This document shows positions 3,070 to 13,117 of a stretch of 64,000 nucleotides of DNA, in pieces. Position 1 is the first letter of the stretch. Each line of letters begins with the position of its first letter. Source of the stretch: Paracoccus laeviglucosivorans (GTDB lineage: Bacteria; Pseudomonadota; Alphaproteobacteria; Rhodobacterales; Rhodobacteraceae); NCBI RefSeq assembly GCF_900182695.1, contig NZ_FXTK01000003.1, positions 62,001 to 126,000 of the forward strand, read 5' to 3'. The translations under genes were made by a program, and so were the position numbers. Below the pieces are notes generated by a model, which saw only the letters and a program-made list of their open reading frames with translations, did no database searches and was not told the origin of the DNA.

Positions 3070-4311
3070 TCAGCCATTTCCAAGCCGCGTGATGTCCTGC
3101 ATTTGGCCGCCCGTCACCATGATCTCGGACGGCAGGGGGTGGCTGATGAAGTAAAGCGGGCTGGCCGTCGGGCCGTAGGCGCCGGCTGCATGAATTGCCA
3201 GCAGATCGCCTTCGTCCAGCCGCGGCAGCTCGACCGCGCCGCCCAGCTTGTCGATCGAGGTGCAAAGCGGGCCGGAGATGTCGTGCTTTTCGACCGGCAA
3301 TGCGCCGTCCTGATCGCCACCGACGCGATGCATGACATAGTTGCGCCGCAGCACCATGCCGAAATTCCCCGAGGCGGCCAGATTGTCGTTCAGACCGCCG
3401 TCGCAGATCGCGATGCGGCTGCCGCGCGATTGTTTGACCGACACCACGCGGGTCAGGAAATAGCCCGCCGGACCGACCAGATGTCGCCCAAGTTCCAGCA
3501 CCAGACGGGCCGAGGGGAAGCGGGCGCGGAAATCGTCCAGCTCCGGGCCGATGGTCGCTGCGATCTGGGACAGGTCCAACGCCTGTTCGCCGGGGTGATA
3601 GGGGATGCCCAGACCCGATCCGAAGATCAGCTTTTCCGGGCGCAGGTCCAGCGCCGAGCAGGTCTCGGTGAACACCTGCATGAAGATGCGCCAATTTTCG
3701 CAGATCGCATCGGGCTTCAGGCTTTGCGTGCCGGAATAGATGTGCAGCCCGATGATGCGCAGGTTCGGCAAGGCGGCAATCTGCGGCAGGATTTCGGCCG
3801 CATCCTCGACATCCACGCCAAAGGCGCTGGGGCGACCGGCCATCTGATCGCCAAAGCCTTTGGGCACACGATCGGGCGCAAGGCGGATCAGCACGGGCTG
3901 GACGCGGCCCAGTTCACCCGCGATGGCATCGGCCAGCCGCGCTTCGCGCAGGCTTTCCAGCACCAGTTCGCCCAAGCCCGCCTGAATCGCGGGACGCAGT
4001 TCGAATTCGCGCTTGGCCGGACCGGTAAAGCTGATCAGCTCGGGGTTCCAGCCTGCCTGTTGCGACAGCGCGAATTCCCCACCCGAGGAGATGTCCAGAT
4101 AATCCAGACGGTCGCGCATCCAGTCCAGCAGTGCCGGACTGGGATTGCTTTTCACCGCATAGCTGATCGCGAACCAGCGGCCAAAGGCTGTGCGCAGCGC
4201 CTCAAGTCGCGACGCGATTTCGTCGGTAAAATAGACATAGGCGGGCGTGCCATAGCGCGCCGCCGCCTCGGCCAGATGATGATCCAGCGTCTTATCCAAG
4301 CGTTGCAACAT
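3070..4311 (-). CDS. PLP-dependent decarboxylase, group IV (DAP/ornithine decarboxylase fold), carrier-protein-associated type
   Basis: A 413-residue alanine-racemase-fold decarboxylase. Near the N terminus it has YVYF followed by the pyridoxal lysine motif YAVKSNP (about residues 53-59); mid-protein GLHIYSGTQ; later a glycine-rich GSGLGIPYHPGE and a C-terminal GAYGPTASP segment. It resembles LysA-type enzymes, but the setting behind an AMP ligase and a carrier protein matches the 'exosortase A system-associated' decarboxylase subfamily rather than lysine synthesis. I chose the ATG at 4311, giving a 20-base overlap with the ACP gene; an in-frame TTG at 4347 is less likely. Last gene of the operon. 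The substrate is unknown: a free diamino acid or a carrier-bound acyl amino acid are both possible. Confidence 0.8.
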   Translation of the reverse strand: MLQRLDKTLDHHLAEAAARYGTPAYVYFTDEIASRLEALRTAFGRWFAISYAVKSNPSPALLDWMRDRLDYLDISSGGEFALSQQAGWNPELISFTGPAKREFELRPAIQAGLGELVLESLREARLADAIAGELGRVQPVLIRLAPDRVPKGFGDQMAGRPSAFGVDVEDAAEILPQIAALPNLRIIGLHIYSGTQSLKPDAICENWRIFMQVFTETCSALDLRPEKLIFGSGLGIPYHPGEQALDLSQIAATIGPELDDFRARFPSARLVLELGRHLVGPAGYFLTRVVSVKQSRGSRIAICDGGLNDNLAASGNFGMVLRRNYVMHRVGGDQDGALPVEKHDISGPLCTSIDKLGGAVELPRLDEGDLLAIHAAGAYGPTASPLYFISHPLPSEIMVTGGQMQDITRLGNG

Positions 4312-4528
4312 AGCCCGAGATCCGATCCACCGTGTCGAAATTCTCAAGCGTCACGTCGCCCGGCTGGATGACCGAGCCGGTCTTTTCCTCGATGAAGGTA
4401 ATCAGGCTGACCATCGACACCGAATCAAGCAGTCCCCCCGAGAAAAGCTCGGTCTGCCCGTCGATTTCTTCTTCGATGTTCAGTTCATCACGCAGGTATG
4501 CAAGCAGTTCTTGCTGGCTCAGGCTCAT
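4292..4528 (-). CDS. Stand-alone acyl carrier protein (phosphopantetheine carrier)
   Basis: A 78-residue acidic four-helix carrier protein. The LLDSVSMVSL stretch carries the serine (about residue 36) expected to receive 4'-phosphopantetheine, in the usual DS context of ACP/PCP domains. The ATG at 4528 lies 13 bases after the stop of the acyl ligase. The 3' end overlaps the decarboxylase gene, suggesting translational coupling. It is not the housekeeping fatty-acid ACP, because it sits inside a ligase-carrier-decarboxylase trio. It probably receives the adenylated acid made by the ligase. The cargo is an inference and unknown. Confidence 0.85.
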   Translation of the reverse strand: MSLSQQELLAYLRDELNIEEEIDGQTELFSGGLLDSVSMVSLITFIEEKTGSVIQPGDVTLENFDTVDRISGYVATLG

Positions 4529-4541
4529 GGGTCTTACCTTG

Positions 4542-6119
4542 TCATTCACTTGGGACAGTGTCTTCCTTGGCGGTCCGTATGATGGCCGGACGGTCCAGCT
4601 TGCCGCTTGCCGTGCGGGGCATCGCGCCTTGCCATGCATGGAACCGCAATGGCCGCATATAATGAGGCATGGTCCTTGCGCAATGCGCCGCGAGCGCGGC
4701 CTGTTCGGCACCGGGCAAATATGTCACGGAAACGTGAACCGCCTGCCCGAAATCGGGGTGATCGACGCCGTAGGCCACGACATCGGTGACCAGACCGCTT
4801 TGGGACAGACCGTCCTCGACCTCGGTGGGGGACAGCCGGAAACCCAGCGTCTTTATCATCTCGTCCATGCGGCTGACGAACCACAGGTCGCCGTCCTGAT
4901 CGACGCGGACCAGATCACCGGAATAGACCACGGGGTCGTCCCCCAGGAGATGCGCCAGTTCGGGGCAGGAGCGGATCTTCAGCGCCGTCACTTCGGGCTT
5001 TTCCCAGTAACCCATGCTGACCAGCGGCCCGGCATGGACCAGTTCGCCCTGTTCGCCGGGACCGGCGATCCCTTCGCCATGCTTGATCGCAAAGACCTGT
5101 GCATTCGGGATCTGCTGGCCGATCGAACCCATCTTGGCCGCGAATTTCGCAGGCGGCAAATAGGTCGAGCGGAAAGCCTCGGTCAGGCCATACATCAGGA
5201 AAATGTCCACGCCCGGAAATACCTTGGGCATCAGCTCAAGGATGTTCGGAGGGATCTTGCCGCCGGTATTGGTCACGCGGCGCAGCGCAGGCAGATCAGT
5301 CGGACTGGCATCCAGCAGCCGCACGATCTGGTTCCACAGGGGGGGCACACCCGCGATGGTCGTGACGGCCTGCTCCTGCGCCATGCGCACCACTTCGGCG
5401 GGCATGGTCAGTGGTTGGTGGACGATCGTGCCACCCAGCAGCATCATCGTCGTCAGCTGGTTAAGCCCTGCGTCAAAGCTGTAAGGCAGCACCGAAAGCA
5501 GCCTGTCATCCTGCGTCAGGCCCAGATACTGCGCGACGGAAATCGCGCCCGCGCGAATATTGCGATGGCTTAGCATCACGCCCTTGGGCGCCCCGGTCGA
5601 ACCCGAGGTGTAGATGATCATCGCCAGCCCCAAAGGGTCGATTTCGTCGGGCGCAGAGCCACTGTCGGCGGCAAGCGCCGTCCAGAGGTCCGCGCCCTGG
5701 GCAAGACCCTCGGCCTTGCCTTGAACCAGAAATGCGGTGTCGGGCGACAGGGCATGATCGCCCTGAAGCGTCTTCAGCGATGCCTGCGTCAGGATGACGG
5801 CGCGGGCGCGGCTGTCCTTGGCGACATAGGAAAGCTGCGCGGGCGACCAATGGCTGTTGACGTTGACGACGACCGCACCGGCTTTCCATGCGCCGAACAT
5901 CGCCGCCGCTTCGTCGATGCTTTTGCGCAGATGCACCAGCACGCGGTCACCGGGGCGGATGCCGCGGGCGCGCAGCCAATCGGTGACGCGCCCTGCCTCG
6001 GCCACGAATTCCGCATAGGTCACACTGCGTTTGGCATCGATTGCAGCGATTTTGCTGCCATGCTTGGAAAGGTTGTCGGCCAGCATGTGCCACATGGCAC
6101 GGTCAAAATCGTTACACAT
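4542..6119 (-). CDS. AMP-forming acyl-CoA/acyl-ACP ligase (ANL superfamily), carrier-protein-associated
   Basis: A 525-residue adenylate-forming enzyme. The P-loop-like core motif IYTSGSTGAPKGVMLSH is present near residue 165-182, followed by MYGLTEAF (A5), YSGDLVRVDQDGDLWFVSR (A7-A8) and a C-terminal ASGKLDRP with the catalytic lysine. These are the full set expected of an active ligase/A domain. I start at ATG 6119, overlapping the upstream acetyltransferase by 8 bases; the longer reading adds only an Arg-rich out-of-family leader. It should activate a carboxylic or amino acid as AMP-ester and load the small carrier encoded next. Closest in architecture to the exosortase-A-associated acyl ligases, but no exosortase is present here. 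Confidence 0.88.
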   Translation of the reverse strand: MCNDFDRAMWHMLADNLSKHGSKIAAIDAKRSVTYAEFVAEAGRVTDWLRARGIRPGDRVLVHLRKSIDEAAAMFGAWKAGAVVVNVNSHWSPAQLSYVAKDSRARAVILTQASLKTLQGDHALSPDTAFLVQGKAEGLAQGADLWTALAADSGSAPDEIDPLGLAMIIYTSGSTGAPKGVMLSHRNIRAGAISVAQYLGLTQDDRLLSVLPYSFDAGLNQLTTMMLLGGTIVHQPLTMPAEVVRMAQEQAVTTIAGVPPLWNQIVRLLDASPTDLPALRRVTNTGGKIPPNILELMPKVFPGVDIFLMYGLTEAFRSTYLPPAKFAAKMGSIGQQIPNAQVFAIKHGEGIAGPGEQGELVHAGPLVSMGYWEKPEVTALKIRSCPELAHLLGDDPVVYSGDLVRVDQDGDLWFVSRMDEMIKTLGFRLSPTEVEDGLSQSGLVTDVVAYGVDHPDFGQAVHVSVTYLPGAEQAALAAHCARTMPHYMRPLRFHAWQGAMPRTASGKLDRPAIIRTAKEDTVPSE

Positions 6120-6654
6120 CCGCCTTCTCCTGCTTTTTCGCCGCAAAGATCGGCAGGCTGGGATAGATTTTGGCCGGAGAGCCAATCACCACGCTGTCCG
6201 AAGGCACGTTGGTCGAAACCGCAGTATTCGCCCCGATCCGCACCCGGTCGCCGATCTTGATTGGCCCGAGAATAGTCGAGTTCACGCCGATGAAAACATC
6301 ATCCCCGATGATCGGTGCGCGCCCACGCATATTCGTGCCGATGGTGACGTTGTGCATGACCCCGCAACGGTCGCCAATTACCGCTTCGGGGTGGATCGAA
6401 AGCGACCCTTCGGCATGGATGATGTGAAAATCCTCGCCCAGTTTGACCTGAGGCGGAATCCACACCTTGGTGACATTCAGGATGAATATCTTGAAAAAGC
6501 CGTAAAGCTTGTTTGCCAGCCAGCGTGCCGCAGGATTACGGATGCCCAAAGCCCAGTGGCCATAGCGATAGATCGCCAACGAAACAAAGGCGGCTTCGGT
6601 CAGCGAGCGACCGTGGCGGATATAGTCGCCCTTGACGACTTCAAACAGACTCAT
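6112..6654 (-). CDS. Serine acetyltransferase-like left-handed beta-helix acyltransferase
   Basis: 180 residues. The second half is a run of hexapeptide repeats (for example around SIHPEAVIGDRCGV and IIGDDVFIGVNSTIL) typical of LbH O/N-acetyltransferases of the CysE/colanic-acid type. HIIHAEGSLSI and the C-terminal VIGSPAKIYP are family hallmarks. The N-terminal ~60 residues are short compared with true CysE. Its place in a polysaccharide or conjugate operon argues for acetylating a sugar or amine rather than making O-acetylserine. It overlaps the ligase start by 8 bases. Confidence 0.8.
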   Translation of the reverse strand: MSLFEVVKGDYIRHGRSLTEAAFVSLAIYRYGHWALGIRNPAARWLANKLYGFFKIFILNVTKVWIPPQVKLGEDFHIIHAEGSLSIHPEAVIGDRCGVMHNVTIGTNMRGRAPIIGDDVFIGVNSTILGPIKIGDRVRIGANTAVSTNVPSDSVVIGSPAKIYPSLPIFAAKKQEKADV

Positions 6655-6732
6655 GCGAGTAACTCAATAACTTGGGCGGAATACCTTGTAGCGTATGATT
6701 CCGCGATCGCAGGGAAAAACTCAACCTGACGT

Positions 6733-7794
6733 TTAGGACGAGTTTTTTGGTTCCCCCTTGTGGATAAGGTCAATGGTGGCCGCGATTTCGTCGAAATCCA
6801 CGGCAAAGGATTCAGCGTGGCCGTGCCCGACGACCATGGCAAAACGCTGCTGCCAACGATCGGTCAAAAGCTTCATGGCGGTCGTCGCCCGGTCGGGTGG
6901 TTGGATCGTCAGCAAAGTGCCACCCGGAGGCATGGCCGCGATCCCGTGGTTCAACTGGCTGCCTTCGACACCCGCAACGATATGCGCGTCGCAGCAGGCC
7001 GCCATCAGTTCGTCCACACTGTGATCTTCGGGAAACATCACGCGGAAACCGAAGTCGCGTTCCAGCCGCTCGGCAACTGCCGCTTCATTTTCAAGCGTGC
7101 GCAGATCGCCAGACTTGCCGCGCAGCAGGAACACGCCGGGGCGCAAAGCCCCGGTGGGATGCGGGATCAGCCGGTTCCGCATATCCTGCGCACGTGCCAT
7201 GCGATGGCTGTTGTTGGCGTGATCGTCGAACAGGAACACTTCGTCCAGATGCAGGTTCGTGACATGACCGGGCGACAGGCTCAGCAGTTCTTCGTAGCGG
7301 GGCACATGGCCTGCGCGGGGCGGCATGGTGGTCAGCGGATGACCCGCTGCCTCGGCCAGGCGATAGGACAGGCAATCGTCCAGCAGCCAGTTTCCGAACC
7401 AGCGATTGCCGACCCATGTCTCATAGAATGCGCCGCTGGGGATTTCCTGCATCAACGGGAAGCTCAGCTTGTGCCGCCGCGACCGCAGATGCAGCGACAG
7501 ACCGCGCGAATACAGCACGCCATCGACAATATCCACGTCTGGCAGGCGATAGCCCATCGTTGCGCCGATCGGTTCCGCCGGATCGCCGGCAAGCGACTTG
7601 ATCAGCAGTGGCAGGGTGGTGAATTCGGTGCGGGTGATCCGCTCGGCCTGTCCGGGCAGGATGATCACCGGCGGCACGCGCAGGATTTCCGCCGGGGCGA
7701 TTTCCCAGCGATCAGTCGCGGCGGCGGCAATATCGCCCGTGCCCAAGCCCAGCAGCAGGCCCAGCCGATAGGTCAGGGGACGCAGCGACATCAT
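6733..7794 (-). CDS. GT61-family glycosyltransferase (DUF563)
   Basis: 353 residues. The C-terminal half has the family pattern: VFLLRGKSGDLRTLENE (beta strand plus nucleotide-binding region), then ERDFGF, and the diagnostic GVEGSQLNHGIAAMPPGGTLL loop corresponding to G-x-H-G-A-G-L-x-N in related enzymes. No signal peptide or membrane span is evident, so it is likely cytosolic. GT61 enzymes in bacteria act in capsule or LPS assembly, often adding xylose, GlcNAc or similar sugars; the donor cannot be read here. The start overlaps the upstream esterase stop (ATGA). 78 bases separate it from the acetyltransferase gene downstream, still compatible with one transcript. Confidence 0.75.
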   Translation of the reverse strand: MMSLRPLTYRLGLLLGLGTGDIAAAATDRWEIAPAEILRVPPVIILPGQAERITRTEFTTLPLLIKSLAGDPAEPIGATMGYRLPDVDIVDGVLYSRGLSLHLRSRRHKLSFPLMQEIPSGAFYETWVGNRWFGNWLLDDCLSYRLAEAAGHPLTTMPPRAGHVPRYEELLSLSPGHVTNLHLDEVFLFDDHANNSHRMARAQDMRNRLIPHPTGALRPGVFLLRGKSGDLRTLENEAAVAERLERDFGFRVMFPEDHSVDELMAACCDAHIVAGVEGSQLNHGIAAMPPGGTLLTIQPPDRATTAMKLLTDRWQQRFAMVVGHGHAESFAVDFDEIAATIDLIHKGEPKNSS

Positions 7795-8963
7795 GCGCCT
7801 GCCCCCTCAATTGCGGCGACCAGCCGGGACGCGATCATGTCGTGATCCTTGGCCGAGGGGTGCCACAGGCATGCCTTACGCTCCAGCTTGGGCAGCACGA
7901 CCAGCAAGACGCGCGTGCCATCGGCTTTCAGCGCGGCCTCGGCGGCGCGATAGGGGGTGACCAAAGGATCACCATATTCGCCAAAGGCTAGCAGCACCTG
8001 CAGGGCGCCGGGATTTTCGCGGACCCGCGCACGAACGAACTCGGTCAGGGCTGGTCCAAACGCTGCGCTTAGGGCGGCTTGATCGGCCCAGGGTTCGTCT
8101 GGCCCGAAATCCGAGCCGAAATCGTTCGATCCGATCCCGGTCACGACAATATCCGCAGGCGGTTGCGGCATTCGGGCGGCAGCCGGATCGCTGGGCAGCG
8201 CCAGCGGATAGCGGCTGGGCATCGTCGTTTCGGGCGAGGCGCCGCCGTAATTTCGCAAAAGCCCGATCCCCGAGCGCGCGATGACGCGGTAATCCGCCCC
8301 CAGCATTGTCGCCACCTGCGGGCCAAAGCTGCGGCTGGTGTCGGTGGCGGCAAAAACCTCATCCTCGCTGCAATCGCGGGTGTTTGAGGTATTGGCAAAG
8401 CCCACCGTGTCCGAATCGCCTATGAATTCGATCAAGCGCGCCGCGGGTTCAGGGCTGGGCAGCGCCGATGAACGCCCGCCGATCAGGATGCCGCCGAAAC
8501 CCGCAGGCATCGAGGACTCGCTGATTTTTTCCACGCGGATGCGATGTTCGCCCGCAGTCAGATTGGAAATGCGCAGATCCTGCGCACCGGGCTGGGAAAT
8601 CTCGACATGATCGCCGCCGTCCAGCGTGATGCGCCAACGGTTCGTGACATCCTGAAACCGGACCGAGACATCCGTGCCGGTAAATCGCGCCTCGACGTGA
8701 AACGCCGGCCATTCCTGCAACAGCGTGTCGCGCGGACCCGCAGCCGTGCGCCCGCTGATGCGCATCGGCAGCGGTTCAAGATCGGCCTCGGGCGCGACCA
8801 GTTCGGCGGCCATGCCTGCGGCCTCCGCATCCATCTTCACGACCTCCAGCGGGGGGACGGGGACATGGGGGCGCGCAGGCTCAGGCCAAAGCCGAGTAAC
8901 CATGAAAACAACAAGCGCCGCTGCCAGTGACAGCAACGACAGACCAGATAACCTCTTCCGCAT
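7791..8963 (-). CDS. Exported SGNH/GDSL carbohydrate esterase, CE2-like
   Basis: 390 residues. A positively charged N terminus is followed by a hydrophobic helix (LSLLSLAAALVVFMV), so it is membrane-anchored or secreted. The N-terminal half resembles a jelly-roll found in CE2 esterases; the hydrolase half begins with IEFIGDSDTVG, where GDS carries the nucleophilic serine, and ends with a HPSAKDH stretch with the catalytic His. The acid residue normally two before that His is not obvious (CLWHPS), consistent with the Ser-His dyads described for some CE2 enzymes. ATG 8963 follows GAGGAAC. It is the first gene of the operon and probably trims or transfers acetyl groups on a surface glycan. Confidence 0.72.
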   Translation of the reverse strand: MRKRLSGLSLLSLAAALVVFMVTRLWPEPARPHVPVPPLEVVKMDAEAAGMAAELVAPEADLEPLPMRISGRTAAGPRDTLLQEWPAFHVEARFTGTDVSVRFQDVTNRWRITLDGGDHVEISQPGAQDLRISNLTAGEHRIRVEKISESSMPAGFGGILIGGRSSALPSPEPAARLIEFIGDSDTVGFANTSNTRDCSEDEVFAATDTSRSFGPQVATMLGADYRVIARSGIGLLRNYGGASPETTMPSRYPLALPSDPAAARMPQPPADIVVTGIGSNDFGSDFGPDEPWADQAALSAAFGPALTEFVRARVRENPGALQVLLAFGEYGDPLVTPYRAAEAALKADGTRVLLVVLPKLERKACLWHPSAKDHDMIASRLVAAIEGAGA

Positions 8964-9085: not shown

Positions 9086-9916
9086 ATGCGCAGATATCTG
9101 GTGGCAAGCGATTTGTCGGCACGCTCCGCTCAGGCGGTGGCCCGAGGCGTGCAGCTGGCGCTGGCATCGCATGACGCGGAACTGACCCTGCTGCATGTTA
9201 CCGACGATGCCGGACCCGACCGGCCAGAGGCCTGCGATCTGCTGCGTGCCCAACTGCCCAAAGGCGCGCCGCCGGGCATCCGTTGCATCGCAAATCCCGG
9301 CGACCCCGATGAGGTGATCCTGCGCGTCGCCGAAGAACTGGGCGTCGATCTGGTCGTCATGGGCATTCCCCGCGCCCGCCGCTTTCCGCAGGCGCTTGCA
9401 GGCACGACGGCCGAGCGCGTTCTGTCCGCGATCCGCAAGCCAGTGGCCGTGATCCGGCGCGATGCGGACCGTCCGTGGAACCGTGTGATGTTGGCCGCCG
9501 AGGAGGACGCGGCCACCGTCGCCGTCATCGCAGGCGGCACGGCATTGGGGCTGTGGCAGGGTGCGGACCTGACGGTGCTTCATGCGACGAACCTGCCCGC
9601 ACCGTCGGGCTTGCGCACCGCCGGGCTAAGTTCGGTCGATCTGCAGCGCATCGACATGCTGGCAATGGGTGAATTGGAACATCGCCTGCGCCGCCGTTTT
9701 TCCGCCCGGCTGACGGATGCCGCGCATCTGGATTTCGCCATGCGCCACGGCGCTGCGGCACAGGCTATCCTGGACCAGCAGAAACAGGACCATTTCGATC
9801 TGGTGGTGATGGGATCGCATGGGCAAGGCACGCTGTCGCGGCTGATCTGCGGTTCGACCAGCGCCGAAATCATCCGCGATCTGGATACCGACCTGATCTG
9901 TTTGCCCGAACCCTAG
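9086..9916 (+). CDS. Tandem-domain universal stress protein (UspA family)
   Basis: 276 residues made of two Usp folds. The first begins RRYLVASDLSARSAQAV and ends near residue 135; the second carries DLVVMGSHGQGTLSRLICGSTSAEII, the complete G-x2-G-x9-G-S/T ATP-binding signature. The equivalent signature in the first half (MGIPRARRFP) is degenerate, so only the C-terminal domain is expected to bind ATP. Single gene on the plus strand between two minus-strand polysaccharide blocks; its last four bases overlap the convergent colD stop. Confidence 0.9.
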   Translation: MRRYLVASDLSARSAQAVARGVQLALASHDAELTLLHVTDDAGPDRPEACDLLRAQLPKGAPPGIRCIANPGDPDEVILRVAEELGVDLVVMGIPRARRFPQALAGTTAERVLSAIRKPVAVIRRDADRPWNRVMLAAEEDAATVAVIAGGTALGLWQGADLTVLHATNLPAPSGLRTAGLSSVDLQRIDMLAMGELEHRLRRRFSARLTDAAHLDFAMRHGAAAQAILDQQKQDHFDLVVMGSHGQGTLSRLICGSTSAEIIRDLDTDLICLPEP

Positions 9917-11082
9917 AGCCGGAAGGCAGCCACCAGTCCAATCGCCTCGGCAATGTCATAGTGATGATTGCCGATGAAAAAGCCGTGTCGGTCAATGTCC
10001 TCGGCATTGGTCATCTGGCCGTGCAGGCTGTGTTCCATCAACCCAAGCACGGGATTCTTGGTAAAGTTGCCACTGACGATGGGACGGGTTTCAAAACCCA
10101 TATCGCCAAGCCGGGTCAGCACCTCGGCCCGCGCCAGTCCGCTTTCGGGGCGCACGACCAGCGAAAAGCCGAACCAGCTGCTTTCGCCCGTCTGGGCCTG
10201 AATGCGAAAGACCGGGTGATGGGCCATCGCGTCCTGCCAGCGCGCACCATTGGCGCGACGACCCGCGATCAGTGCGGGCAGCTTCTTGACCTGTTCACGC
10301 CCCAGTGCGCCCGACATCTCCAGCGGGCGCAGGTTGTAGCCCGGCAGCACGAAGCGGAAACTTTCCTGAAACGGATCATCGCTTTTCGTGCCGGTCAGGC
10401 GGTTCTCGCGCGGCAGATTGCGCGTCCAGCCATGCGCCCGCAAGGCCAGCATGATGTGGTAAAGTTCCTCATCATCGGTAACGACCAGCCCGCCCTCCAT
10501 GGTCGAGATGTGGTGCGAGAAAAAACACGAATAGCTGCCCATCACGCCGAACGTCCCGGCCTGACGCCCGGCAAAGGTCGCGCCCATGGATTCGCAGTTA
10601 TCCTCGATCAGCACGATCCGGCGGGGGCCGATCAGCGCGCGGATGGCGTCGAAATCATTGGGATTGCCCAGCAGGTTCACCGCCATGATTGCGCCGGTGC
10701 GGTCGTTGATCGCAGCCCCCAGCGCGGCCAGATCATAGTTCAGCGTATCGGCATCAATATCGACGAATTTTAGGTGCAGCCCATATTGGTGCAGCGGGAA
10801 AAAGGTCGTGGACCAGCTGACGGCGGGCACGATCACCTCATCGCCGGGCATCAGGCGCAGGTCGGGGTTTTGCGTATAGCGCAAGGCCGCAACCATGATC
10901 AGGTTGGCAGATGACCCGGAATTCACCATCACGGCGTAACGGCTGCCAGCGAAGGCGGCGAAATCGGCTTCGAACGCCTCGACCTCTGGTCCCATCGAAT
11001 AGCGGTCCGAGGCGATGACACGGGCCAGCGCCGCCTGCTCGGCATCATCCCAGCTTGAGGTCGCCAGCGGAAAACGGGTCAT
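9913..11082 (-). CDS. colD: GDP-4-dehydro-6-deoxy-D-mannose 3-dehydratase (ColD)
   Basis: A 389-residue member of the DegT/DnrJ aminotransferase fold. The PLP lysine is replaced by histidine: FFSHHISTMEGG around residue 188-198, with His191 at the position of the catalytic His of E. coli ColD. Downstream RAHGWTRNLP, LPGYNLRPLEMSGALG and TGESSWFGFS match ColD closely from memory. The enzyme removes the C3 hydroxyl of GDP-4-keto-6-deoxymannose using PLP or PMP with glutamate. ATG 11082 overlaps the colC stop by four bases. A perosamine synthase (Lys in place of His) is the alternative and is excluded by the residue seen. Confidence 0.88.
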   Translation of the reverse strand: MTRFPLATSSWDDAEQAALARVIASDRYSMGPEVEAFEADFAAFAGSRYAVMVNSGSSANLIMVAALRYTQNPDLRLMPGDEVIVPAVSWSTTFFPLHQYGLHLKFVDIDADTLNYDLAALGAAINDRTGAIMAVNLLGNPNDFDAIRALIGPRRIVLIEDNCESMGATFAGRQAGTFGVMGSYSCFFSHHISTMEGGLVVTDDEELYHIMLALRAHGWTRNLPRENRLTGTKSDDPFQESFRFVLPGYNLRPLEMSGALGREQVKKLPALIAGRRANGARWQDAMAHHPVFRIQAQTGESSWFGFSLVVRPESGLARAEVLTRLGDMGFETRPIVSGNFTKNPVLGLMEHSLHGQMTNAEDIDRHGFFIGNHHYDIAEAIGLVAAFRL

Positions 11083-11993
11083 GCCAAGATCTCCAGATAA
11101 TGCGCATAAGTCGCGGCAATGCCGTCGGTCAGGCTGGTCAGCGGTGCCCAGCCCCATTCCGTCTGACGCCGCACCGACAAAAGCTTCTGCCGCATCCCCA
11201 CGGGCTTGGTCAGGTCATGCGTGAACGTCCCCTGCCACCCGATCACCTGTGCGGCGATGCGGTAGTAATCATTGATCGAATGATCCTGTCCGACCCCGAT
11301 ATTCATCAGCCGGGGCGCCGCCGGGTCCAGCGCCCGCAGGATCGCGTCCGCCAGATCGGGCGCATACATGAATTCACGCCGCGCCTCTCCATCCCCCCAG
11401 ATATCGACCGTGGGGGCGTTCGCGGTTTTGGCCTGATGCAGCTTGTGAATAATTGCCGGCAGCAGGTGCGAGCGGCCCGGATCGAACTTGTCGAAAGGCC
11501 CGTAAAGATTGCATGGGATCAACGTCCGCCAGTTCAGCGACGCATCCTCGGCCCGCGCATAGTCGATCAGGCGCATCGCCATGATCTTGGCCAAAGCATA
11601 GCCTTCGTTCGTAGGCTCCAGCGCGCCGGTCAGAATCTGGTCTTCGGACAAATCCCGCCCCAGCGCCGCCGGGTAGACGCAGCTGGAGCTTAGGTTGATC
11701 AGCGTGCCCACGCCCGCCTCGCGGCAGGCCAGAACCACGTTCAGCCCGATCTGGGCATTCGCGGCCAGAAAGCGGACCGGCTCGGCCATATTGGCGTGGA
11801 TGCCGCCCACGACGCCCGCCGCATGAACCACCGCATCAGGGCGGTTGCGCGTCACATAGGCCCGCACCGCCGCGCCGTCCTGCAGGTCCAGATCACCGCG
11901 GGCAGGGGCCAGCAGCTCAAAACCGGACATCCCCGGATGGGCGCGCAGATTGCGCCCGACCATGCCATGCGCGCCGGTAATCAGCAGCCGCAT
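11079..11993 (-). CDS. colC: GDP-L-colitose synthase (ColC) / GDP-fucose synthase-type epimerase-reductase
   Basis: A 304-residue extended SDR. The N terminus has the GAHGMVGRNL dinucleotide motif; LINLSSSCVYP and NEGYALAKI give the Ser-Tyr-Lys catalytic set; CNLYGPFDKFDP matches the Fcl/WcaG family. Fcl and ColC are homologous bifunctional 3,5(5)-epimerase/4-reductases. Because it lies between gmd and colD in a tightly overlapped trio, the ColC role (making GDP-L-colitose) is favoured, but GDP-L-fucose production cannot be ruled out from sequence alone. ATG 11993 shares one base with the gmd stop. Confidence 0.8.
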   Translation of the reverse strand: MRLLITGAHGMVGRNLRAHPGMSGFELLAPARGDLDLQDGAAVRAYVTRNRPDAVVHAAGVVGGIHANMAEPVRFLAANAQIGLNVVLACREAGVGTLINLSSSCVYPAALGRDLSEDQILTGALEPTNEGYALAKIMAMRLIDYARAEDASLNWRTLIPCNLYGPFDKFDPGRSHLLPAIIHKLHQAKTANAPTVDIWGDGEARREFMYAPDLADAILRALDPAAPRLMNIGVGQDHSINDYYRIAAQVIGWQGTFTHDLTKPVGMRQKLLSVRRQTEWGWAPLTSLTDGIAATYAHYLEILA

Positions 11994-13117
11994 CACTGGC
12001 CCCCGGCCGATACCGGCAGGTCCAGCCCGTGATCCTTCAGCAGCGCGTGCCGCCGCGCGGTCTGCAGATCCGCCTCGACCATCTCGGCGATCATGTCGCG
12101 CAAAGGCGTTTCCGGCACCCAGCCAAGCTTGTCGCGCGCCTTGCTGGCGTCGCCCAGCAGGGTCGCAACCTCGGCGGGGCGGAAATATTTGGGATCGACG
12201 CGCATCACCACATCGCCCGATTTCAACGCGGGAGCCTTGTCGCCGCTGATCCCCGCGACCACCGCAACCTCATCGATACCCGCGCCGCGGAACTCCAGTG
12301 TGATGCCCAGCTCCTCGGCGGTCCAGATCAGGAACTGGCGCACGGAATGCTGCTCTCCGGTCGCGATGACGAAATCCTCGGGCGTGTCGCATTGCAGCAT
12401 CAGCCATTGCATCCGCACATAGTCGCGGGCATGGCCCCAGTCGCGCAACGCATCAAGATTACCCATGTACAGGCAGCCTTCCAGCCCCTGCGCGATATTG
12501 GCCATACCGCGCGTGATCTTGCGCGTCACGAAAGTCTCGCCCCGGCGCGGGCTTTCATGGTTGAACAGGATACCGTTGCAGGCAAACAGCCCATAAGCCT
12601 CGCGGTAATTCACCGTGATCCAATAGGCGTATAACTTGGCCACCGCATAGGGGCTCCGAGGGTGAAACGGCGTGGCCTCGGTCTGCGGTGTTTCGCGCAC
12701 CAGCCCGTATAGTTCGGATGTCGAGGCCTGATAGAACCGGCTGTGCTTTTCCAGCCCCAGAAACCGGATTGCCTCCAGCAGACGCAGCGTGCCGATGCCG
12801 TCCACATCGGCGGTATATTCGGGCGCCTCGAAGCTGACGGCGACATGCGACTGCGCCCCAAGGTTATAAACCTCGTCCGGACGCACCTCGGCCATGATGC
12901 GGGTCAGGTTGGAGCTGTCGGTCAGATCGCCGTAATGCAGGAAAAAGCGCGGCTTTTCCTCATGCGGATCCTGAAAGATGTGATCGACCCGCTGGGTGTT
13001 GAAGCTTGATGCGCGGCGCTTGATGCCATGCACCTCATAACCCTGCTCCAGAAGAAACTCGGCAAGATACGAACCGTCCTGTCCGGTCACACCGGTGATC
13101 AGGGCTTTCTTGGTCAC
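11993..13117 (-). CDS. gmd: GDP-mannose 4,6-dehydratase
   Basis: A 374-residue SDR converting GDP-D-mannose to GDP-4-keto-6-deoxy-D-mannose. It shows [19 protein letters not shown] at the NADP site, [10 protein letters not shown] and SPYAVAKLY for the catalytic Thr/Tyr/Lys, [17 protein letters not shown] and the C-terminal [13 protein letters not shown]. Length and motifs are those of standard Gmd. The start codon is GTG (13115-13117) preceded by GGAGACC. First gene of the gmd-colC-colD operon. No GDP-mannose synthesis genes (manB/manC) are in the window. Confidence 0.95.

Follow-up and report, generated by a model that had tools for sequence, protein, structure and literature searches.

A conserved six-gene Paracoccus operon that may place a carrier-bound aminoacyl group on a surface glycan

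The 64,000-nucleotide stretch of Paracoccus laeviglucosivorans DNA analyzed here (the window, positions 62001-126000 of contig NZ_FXTK01000003.1, from a genome of 4.30 Mb in 82 contigs, 99.7% complete) carries, at positions 3070-8963, six consecutive genes that fill the interval and are all encoded on the minus strand. Three of them encode a ligase, a carrier protein and a decarboxylase. In the reading that we favor, to which we give a probability of about one half, this trio would assemble an omega-aminoacyl group in thioester linkage to the carrier, from which a hexapeptide acyltransferase of the same operon, termed HEX, would transfer it to a surface glycan. The gene order, the kinship of the proteins and their pocket and motif residues are direct observations on the operon. 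Its genes are:

7791..8963, minus strand: SGNH/CE2 carbohydrate esterase with a hydrophobic N-terminus (Pfam CE2_N, PDB 2w9x)
6733..7794, minus strand: GT61-family glycosyltransferase (Pfam PF04577)
6112..6654, minus strand: HEX, a hexapeptide acyltransferase with a serine-acetyltransferase fold lacking the serine-site residues; candidate aminoacyl transferase
4542..6119, minus strand: AMP-forming ligase with a VinN-like pocket (D216/T285/R317)
4292..4528, minus strand: stand-alone carrier protein, phosphopantetheine site S36 (Pfam PF00550)
3070..4311, minus strand: pyridoxal phosphate (PLP) decarboxylase of the BtrK clade

Open reading frame (ORF) and domain searches confirmed the same-strand block and the domains that a sequence-only reading of this DNA had named. 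Spacings from the esterase gene to the decarboxylase gene are −4, +78, −8, +13 and −20 bases; the tight packing claimed earlier thus describes four junctions, while the 78-base gap between GT61 and HEX is longer than that phrase allows. An alternative in-frame GTG start is possible for the carrier gene at 4549. The D35-S36 pair of the carrier is invariant in 34/34 loci. The SGNH protein matches the carbohydrate esterase of PDB 2w9x (193 bits), its S184, N280 and H368 are invariant in 30/30 loci, and it belongs to CE2 by its CE2_N domain together with the SGNH Ser and His. The GT61 assignment comes from Pfam only (PF04577, 53 bits versus a cut-off of 27).

The gene order is conserved well beyond this genome. 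Among 101 genomes of the genus Paracoccus, searched at E <= 1e-40, HEX is present in 29, and a ligase match adjoins it in all 29, one of which is cut by a contig end. Twenty-four of the 29 (own window counted) keep all six genes in order on one strand, and linkage therefore exceeds chance. Of the other five, two (L123 and L126) are complete but for GT61, L146 has its SGNH gene moved and inverted, and two (L150 and L151) are contig-cut. These counts rest on tblastn positions, the gene caller used on the loci being crude (some wrong-strand ORFs); L009/L129 and L010/L127 appear to be duplicate entries of one genome each, and only L129 and L127 are counted among the 29. A search of 295 genomes of the wider family at E <= 1e-120 found the ligase in four, the own genome among them, with an identical six-gene order in L147 and a contig-cut locus in L148. 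Paracoccus denitrificans DSM 413 (L009) has the six genes and, beside them, gmd-fcl-ColD. Related gene orders occur in an uncultured Rhodobacteraceae (L011; GT61-HEX-ligase-carrier-decarboxylase) and in Defluviimonas (L012; HEX-ligase-carrier-decarboxylase-GT61).

The ligase, 87% identical to its P. shanxieyensis counterpart, resembles VinN in its substrate pocket. In VinN, D230 and S299/R331 are proposed, in the available part of PMC7756342, to recognize the amino and carboxyl groups of 3-methylaspartate, and the available part of PMC11253843 gives the same role for D230. These residues align with D216, T285 and R317 of the ligase, with Thr in place of Ser, and a PDB search restricted to the pocket segment ranks VinN first. 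Eighty ligase loci were sorted by the presence of a nearby decarboxylase into 34 linked and 46 unlinked. The D, S/T, R triad is present in 34/34 linked ligases versus 3/46 unlinked ones (Fisher p = 1.8e-19, a value overstated because the linked ligases share ancestry). Of the three unlinked carriers of the triad, L032 has its decarboxylase cut by a contig end, L039 lies on a contig that ends soon past the ligase, and L043 is without a decarboxylase. The L043 ligase, from Chitinimonas (10001-11503), has a full D, T, R triad, and no decarboxylase was found in its 21-kb locus. Five pocket letters are identical in 120/120 sequences among the matches listed, and the triad occurs in 0/7 of the own-genome ligase-type paralogues examined. 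The position equivalent to VinN residue 231, a Phe in VinN, is Tyr in 24 and Ala in 10 of the linked ligases, six of these ten lying outside Rhodobacterales. The Ala of the operon ligase would favor a longer substrate, and so weakly suggests glutamate and 4-aminobutyrate (GABA) over aspartate and beta-alanine as substrate and product.

The decarboxylase points to the same carrier chemistry. In a PDB search its two best matches were BtrK entries (218 bits), the best diaminopimelate (DAP) decarboxylase scoring 156. A maximum-likelihood tree of 47 rows placed 27 trio decarboxylases and BtrK in one clade (support 100/97) and 13 LysA rows, including that of the own genome, outside it; the program gave a long-branch warning for some rows, and one row labelled lysA (L197), really the trio decarboxylase of L013, is counted in neither group. 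The Cys-Thr motif of BtrK is found in 26/27 trio decarboxylases, L040 having Cys-Ser, whereas 13/13 LysA proteins have Cys-Glu at the same motif. The operon protein scores 237 bits with the LysA model TIGR01048, below its cut-off of 297.9, and a separate LysA of the genome scores 475. By its clade, then, the operon decarboxylase is classed as BtrK-type, apart from LysA. BtrK converts glutamyl-S-BtrI to 4-aminobutyryl-S-BtrI by decarboxylation, according to the part of PMC7857480 that was available.

HEX has a serine-acetyltransferase fold as modelled (pLDDT 72), all fold matches among the matches listed being serine acetyltransferases (SATs); the model search bears on the fold only. Public records name relatives of HEX serine acetyltransferase. 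The EpsC model gives it 97 bits versus a cut-off of 150. We compared four aligned SAT positions, which we take to be the catalytic Asp, the serine-binding Asp and His, and the base His. Across 34 HEX proteins, one Asp position is W65 (W30, F2, Y1, A1), the second Asp position is I79 (I33, V1) and the His position is A113 (A32, V2); the base His is retained as H80 in 34/34. Because three of the aligned SAT residues are replaced, HEX is probably not a serine acetyltransferase and the public annotation is probably wrong. Median identity over 25 loci is 78% for HEX, the same as for the ligase and the decarboxylase, and 61% for the carrier, 56% for SGNH and 55% for GT61. Because of this level of conservation, its constant company and the overlap of its gene with that of the ligase, HEX is the likely best candidate for the enzyme that transfers the trio product.

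Taken together, these features suggest the following pathway, drawn from sequence comparisons. The ligase would adenylate the side-chain carboxyl of aspartate or glutamate and load it onto S36 of the carrier, D216 holding the amino group of the substrate and T285 and R317 its alpha-carboxyl. The next predicted step is removal of the alpha-carboxyl by the BtrK-like decarboxylase while the amino acid is carrier-bound, with beta-alanyl- or 4-aminobutyryl-S-carrier as the product. HEX would move the omega-aminoacyl group from the carrier thioester, its donor, to a sugar acceptor supplied or extended by GT61, and the CE2 esterase, outside the cytoplasm, would trim or edit the ester. Acyl-carriers are used by LpxA and LpxD, a precedent for such a donor. 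Substrate, loading, on-carrier decarboxylation, HEX transfer, acceptor, location and CE2 editing are all points that we infer. Of the two halves of this pathway, the chemistry on the carrier has better support than the delivery to a glycan. More tentative, and to our mind short of an even chance, is the fuller picture of a surface decoration in which a side-chain-charged, carrier-decarboxylated aminoacyl group is put on a glycan by a neofunctionalized SAT-fold enzyme and in which the exosortase-A pair performs the same chemistry. The sequence-only reading had proposed an amine or acyl decoration delivered by a carrier to a polysaccharide; this is partly supported, in that the linkage of the trio to GT61, CE2 and HEX is conserved, and the evidence favors a thioester on the carrier over a free amine.

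That reading had also likened the trio to one found near exosortase A loci, and the kinship holds in a qualified form. The nearest NCBIfam models are indeed TIGR03098 for the ligase (499 bits versus a cut-off of 592) and TIGR03099 for the decarboxylase (356 versus 478), and because both proteins fall below these cut-offs the operon trio is placed as a sister variant of the exosortase-A trio. The lack of an exosortase gene nearby, also remarked earlier, extends to the whole genome (99.7% complete), which gave no match to PF09721. A positive control, L025, passes both cut-offs and has an exosortase on the same contig, ~9 kb from its decarboxylase. Exosortase was found in 24 of 33 genomes searched (those of 32 of the 34 linked loci, and L032). 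Two loci, L017 (Paraburkholderia) and L030 (Mycobacterium), score above the two cut-offs in genomes with no exosortase match; the trio neighbors are KAS III and acyl-CoA dehydrogenase genes in L017, and GT4, polysaccharide deacetylase and UDP-sugar dehydrogenase genes in L030. In both, the exosortase-A family name misleads. In itself, then, the trio is not bound to glycan genes, as L017 shows. Operon trio and exosortase-A pair have the pocket triad in common, and where the latter has its exosortase surroundings the operon has HEX, GT61 and CE2. To us the trio appears to be a portable source of aminoacyl thioesters, the exosortase label applying to one of its contexts. TIGR03098 and TIGR03099 are typed 'hypothetical equivalog', and the literature searched gave no account of the chemistry of these two enzymes: Haft 2006 (PMC1569441) contains none of the four terms looked for, and the available part of PMC2907700 mentions exosortase and not the trio.

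Several observations weigh against the favored reading. Over the whole ligase, the PDB ranking puts gramicidin-synthase chains and one other peptide synthetase above VinN, and a fold search with the ligase model returned, among the matches listed, general adenylate-forming enzymes, with VinN not among them, a result that speaks neither for nor against the proposed substrate. The model has a pLDDT of 82.9, but the loop 312-319 that holds R317 is below 50. The bulky residue after the Asp is not kept (VinN F231 is Ala217 here), and VinN K330 is Phe. Owing to shared ancestry, the count of pocket residues is not independent evidence of substrate. On the glycan side, GT61 is missing from the block in L123 and L126, where its replacement by another copy is possible, each genome having four GT61 matches elsewhere. 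The genes past the decarboxylase are housekeeping or unrelated in L141 and L147 (adenine deaminase, aldehyde dehydrogenase, M24 peptidase) and an ABC transporter set in L011. The scores of both trio proteins below the exosortase-A cut-offs also count against this reading, as does the lack of a dedicated polymerase or exporter in the block.

The operon could instead make a small molecule, an aminolipid or glycolipid, the trio supplying an aminoacyl unit that HEX N-acylates and GT61 glycosylates, with no polysaccharide involved. The fatty-acid-type neighbors of the related Paraburkholderia trio agree with this, as does the bolagladin trio BolO-BolC-BolN, which feeds a lipodepsipeptide (available part of PMC7756342); the block has one glycosyltransferase and no dedicated polymerase or exporter, and some copies of it are flanked by housekeeping genes. 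Against it, the block includes a CE2 carbohydrate esterase with a hydrophobic N-terminus, a domain search found no KAS, PKS or NRPS gene among the six, and gmd-colC-colD adjoin it in 11/29 genomes. We judge this explanation unlikely.

HEX could also be an ordinary acetyl-CoA-dependent O-acetyltransferase with no connection to the carrier. It would then form with SGNH a usual pair for glycan O-acetylation and deacetylation, the trio product being used elsewhere, for example as the N-acyl group of a nucleotide sugar before GT61 acts. Enzymes of the HEX fold class use acetyl-CoA, and PDB entries of CE2 enzymes bear the name acetyl esterase, yet HEX adjoins the ligase in 29/29 genomes, the two genes overlap by 8 bases, and HEX is as conserved as the ligase and the decarboxylase, unlike GT61 and SGNH; such a division of labor seems to us rather doubtful. 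A true acyl-CoA ligase paired with a DAP-type decarboxylase of free amino acids, yielding a free amine or CoA thioester, is suggested by the family name 'acyl-CoA ligase' and the kinship to DAP decarboxylases, but is very improbable given the carrier gene between the two, the VinN triad, the BtrK clade with its loss of the LysA Cys-Glu motif, and the separate LysA.

The favored pathway, carrier chemistry followed by transfer to a glycan, has parallels in known systems. VinN-VinL-VinO of vicenistatin and BolO-BolC-BolN of bolagladin likewise combine an adenylating enzyme, a stand-alone carrier and a PLP decarboxylase, and the operon ligase shares the Asp, Ser/Thr, Arg triad with VinN but differs from it at residue 231 (Phe there, Ala here); those trios feed a PKS or NRPS, whereas the operon trio is coupled to HEX, GT61 and CE2. 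The decarboxylase shares a clade with BtrK, which acts on a glutamyl-S-carrier in the BtrK-BtrI system of butirosin, although that system feeds an aminoglycoside. BtrJ, the butirosin loading enzyme, is of another ligase class. In Dlt D-alanylation (DltA-DltC-DltB-DltD), too, a ligase and a small carrier charge an amino acid for the surface with an SGNH-type partner, DltD having an SGNH-type fold; the operon system would differ in that a decarboxylase remodels the amino acid on the carrier. None of the six operon genes encodes an MBOAT, a feature of Dlt (a search confined to these six). CysE/EpsC serine O-acetyltransferases share the fold of HEX and are its best sequence matches, and differ from it at the three replaced residues (34/34) and by the EpsC cut-off.

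Upstream of the operon lie a universal-stress-protein gene and an accessory set resembling the genes for colitose:

9086-9916, plus strand: universal-stress-protein gene, between ColD and the operon
9913..11157, minus strand: ColD-like sugar 3-dehydratase, accessory (PDB ColD, 508 bits)
11079..11996, minus strand: fcl/ColC-like epimerase-reductase, accessory (below the Fcl cut-off)
11993..13117, minus strand: gmd, GDP-mannose 4,6-dehydratase, accessory (TIGR01472, 581 bits versus a cut-off of 415)

A gene grouped with the universal-stress gene also occurs in L123 and L135. The ColD-like protein, of the DegT family, has ColD as its best match, and its His-containing SHH motif aligns with that of ColD; the three-gene set likely makes GDP-colitose. 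Counting the own genome, 11 of 29 have it next to the operon, and two contig-cut genomes cannot tell. ColD itself, searched at E <= 1e-60 in 20 genomes, was at the operon in 3 (the own genome and two chosen as controls), on another contig in 2 and absent from 15. With adjacency in 11/29 only and ColD missing from 15/20, the colitose set is ruled out as a required partner, and these genes are one context rather than part of the operon core. In L136 only a 46-residue ColD match stands beside the operon, which suggests a remnant of loss. Downstream, an MrpA-type gene (assigned from reading its ORF) is conserved beside the operon, so that the earlier statement that the flanking genes make glycans describes the upstream side (ColD-, fcl/colC- and gmd-like genes) and not the downstream one. 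No MrpA match was found in the ~1.5 kb beside proS in 17 of the 72 HEX-less genus genomes, picked from the matches listed, and a simple empty site was not demonstrated by MrpA/proS adjacency in these 17. Neither colitose nor aminoacylated polysaccharides yielded a lead in the literature searched; the available part of PMC13235738 describes an exopolysaccharide region of P. denitrificans.

The shared pocket residues (34/34) and the BtrK clade suggest one chemistry for the exosortase and Paracoccus variants. If the proposed pathway is true, the orphan exosortase-A ligase and decarboxylase would gain their missing chemistry, and machinery known from antibiotic building blocks would also furnish bacterial surfaces with groups that bear an amine. 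The idea resembles Dlt but uses another building block, and the bacteria concerned include the laboratory organism Paracoccus denitrificans.

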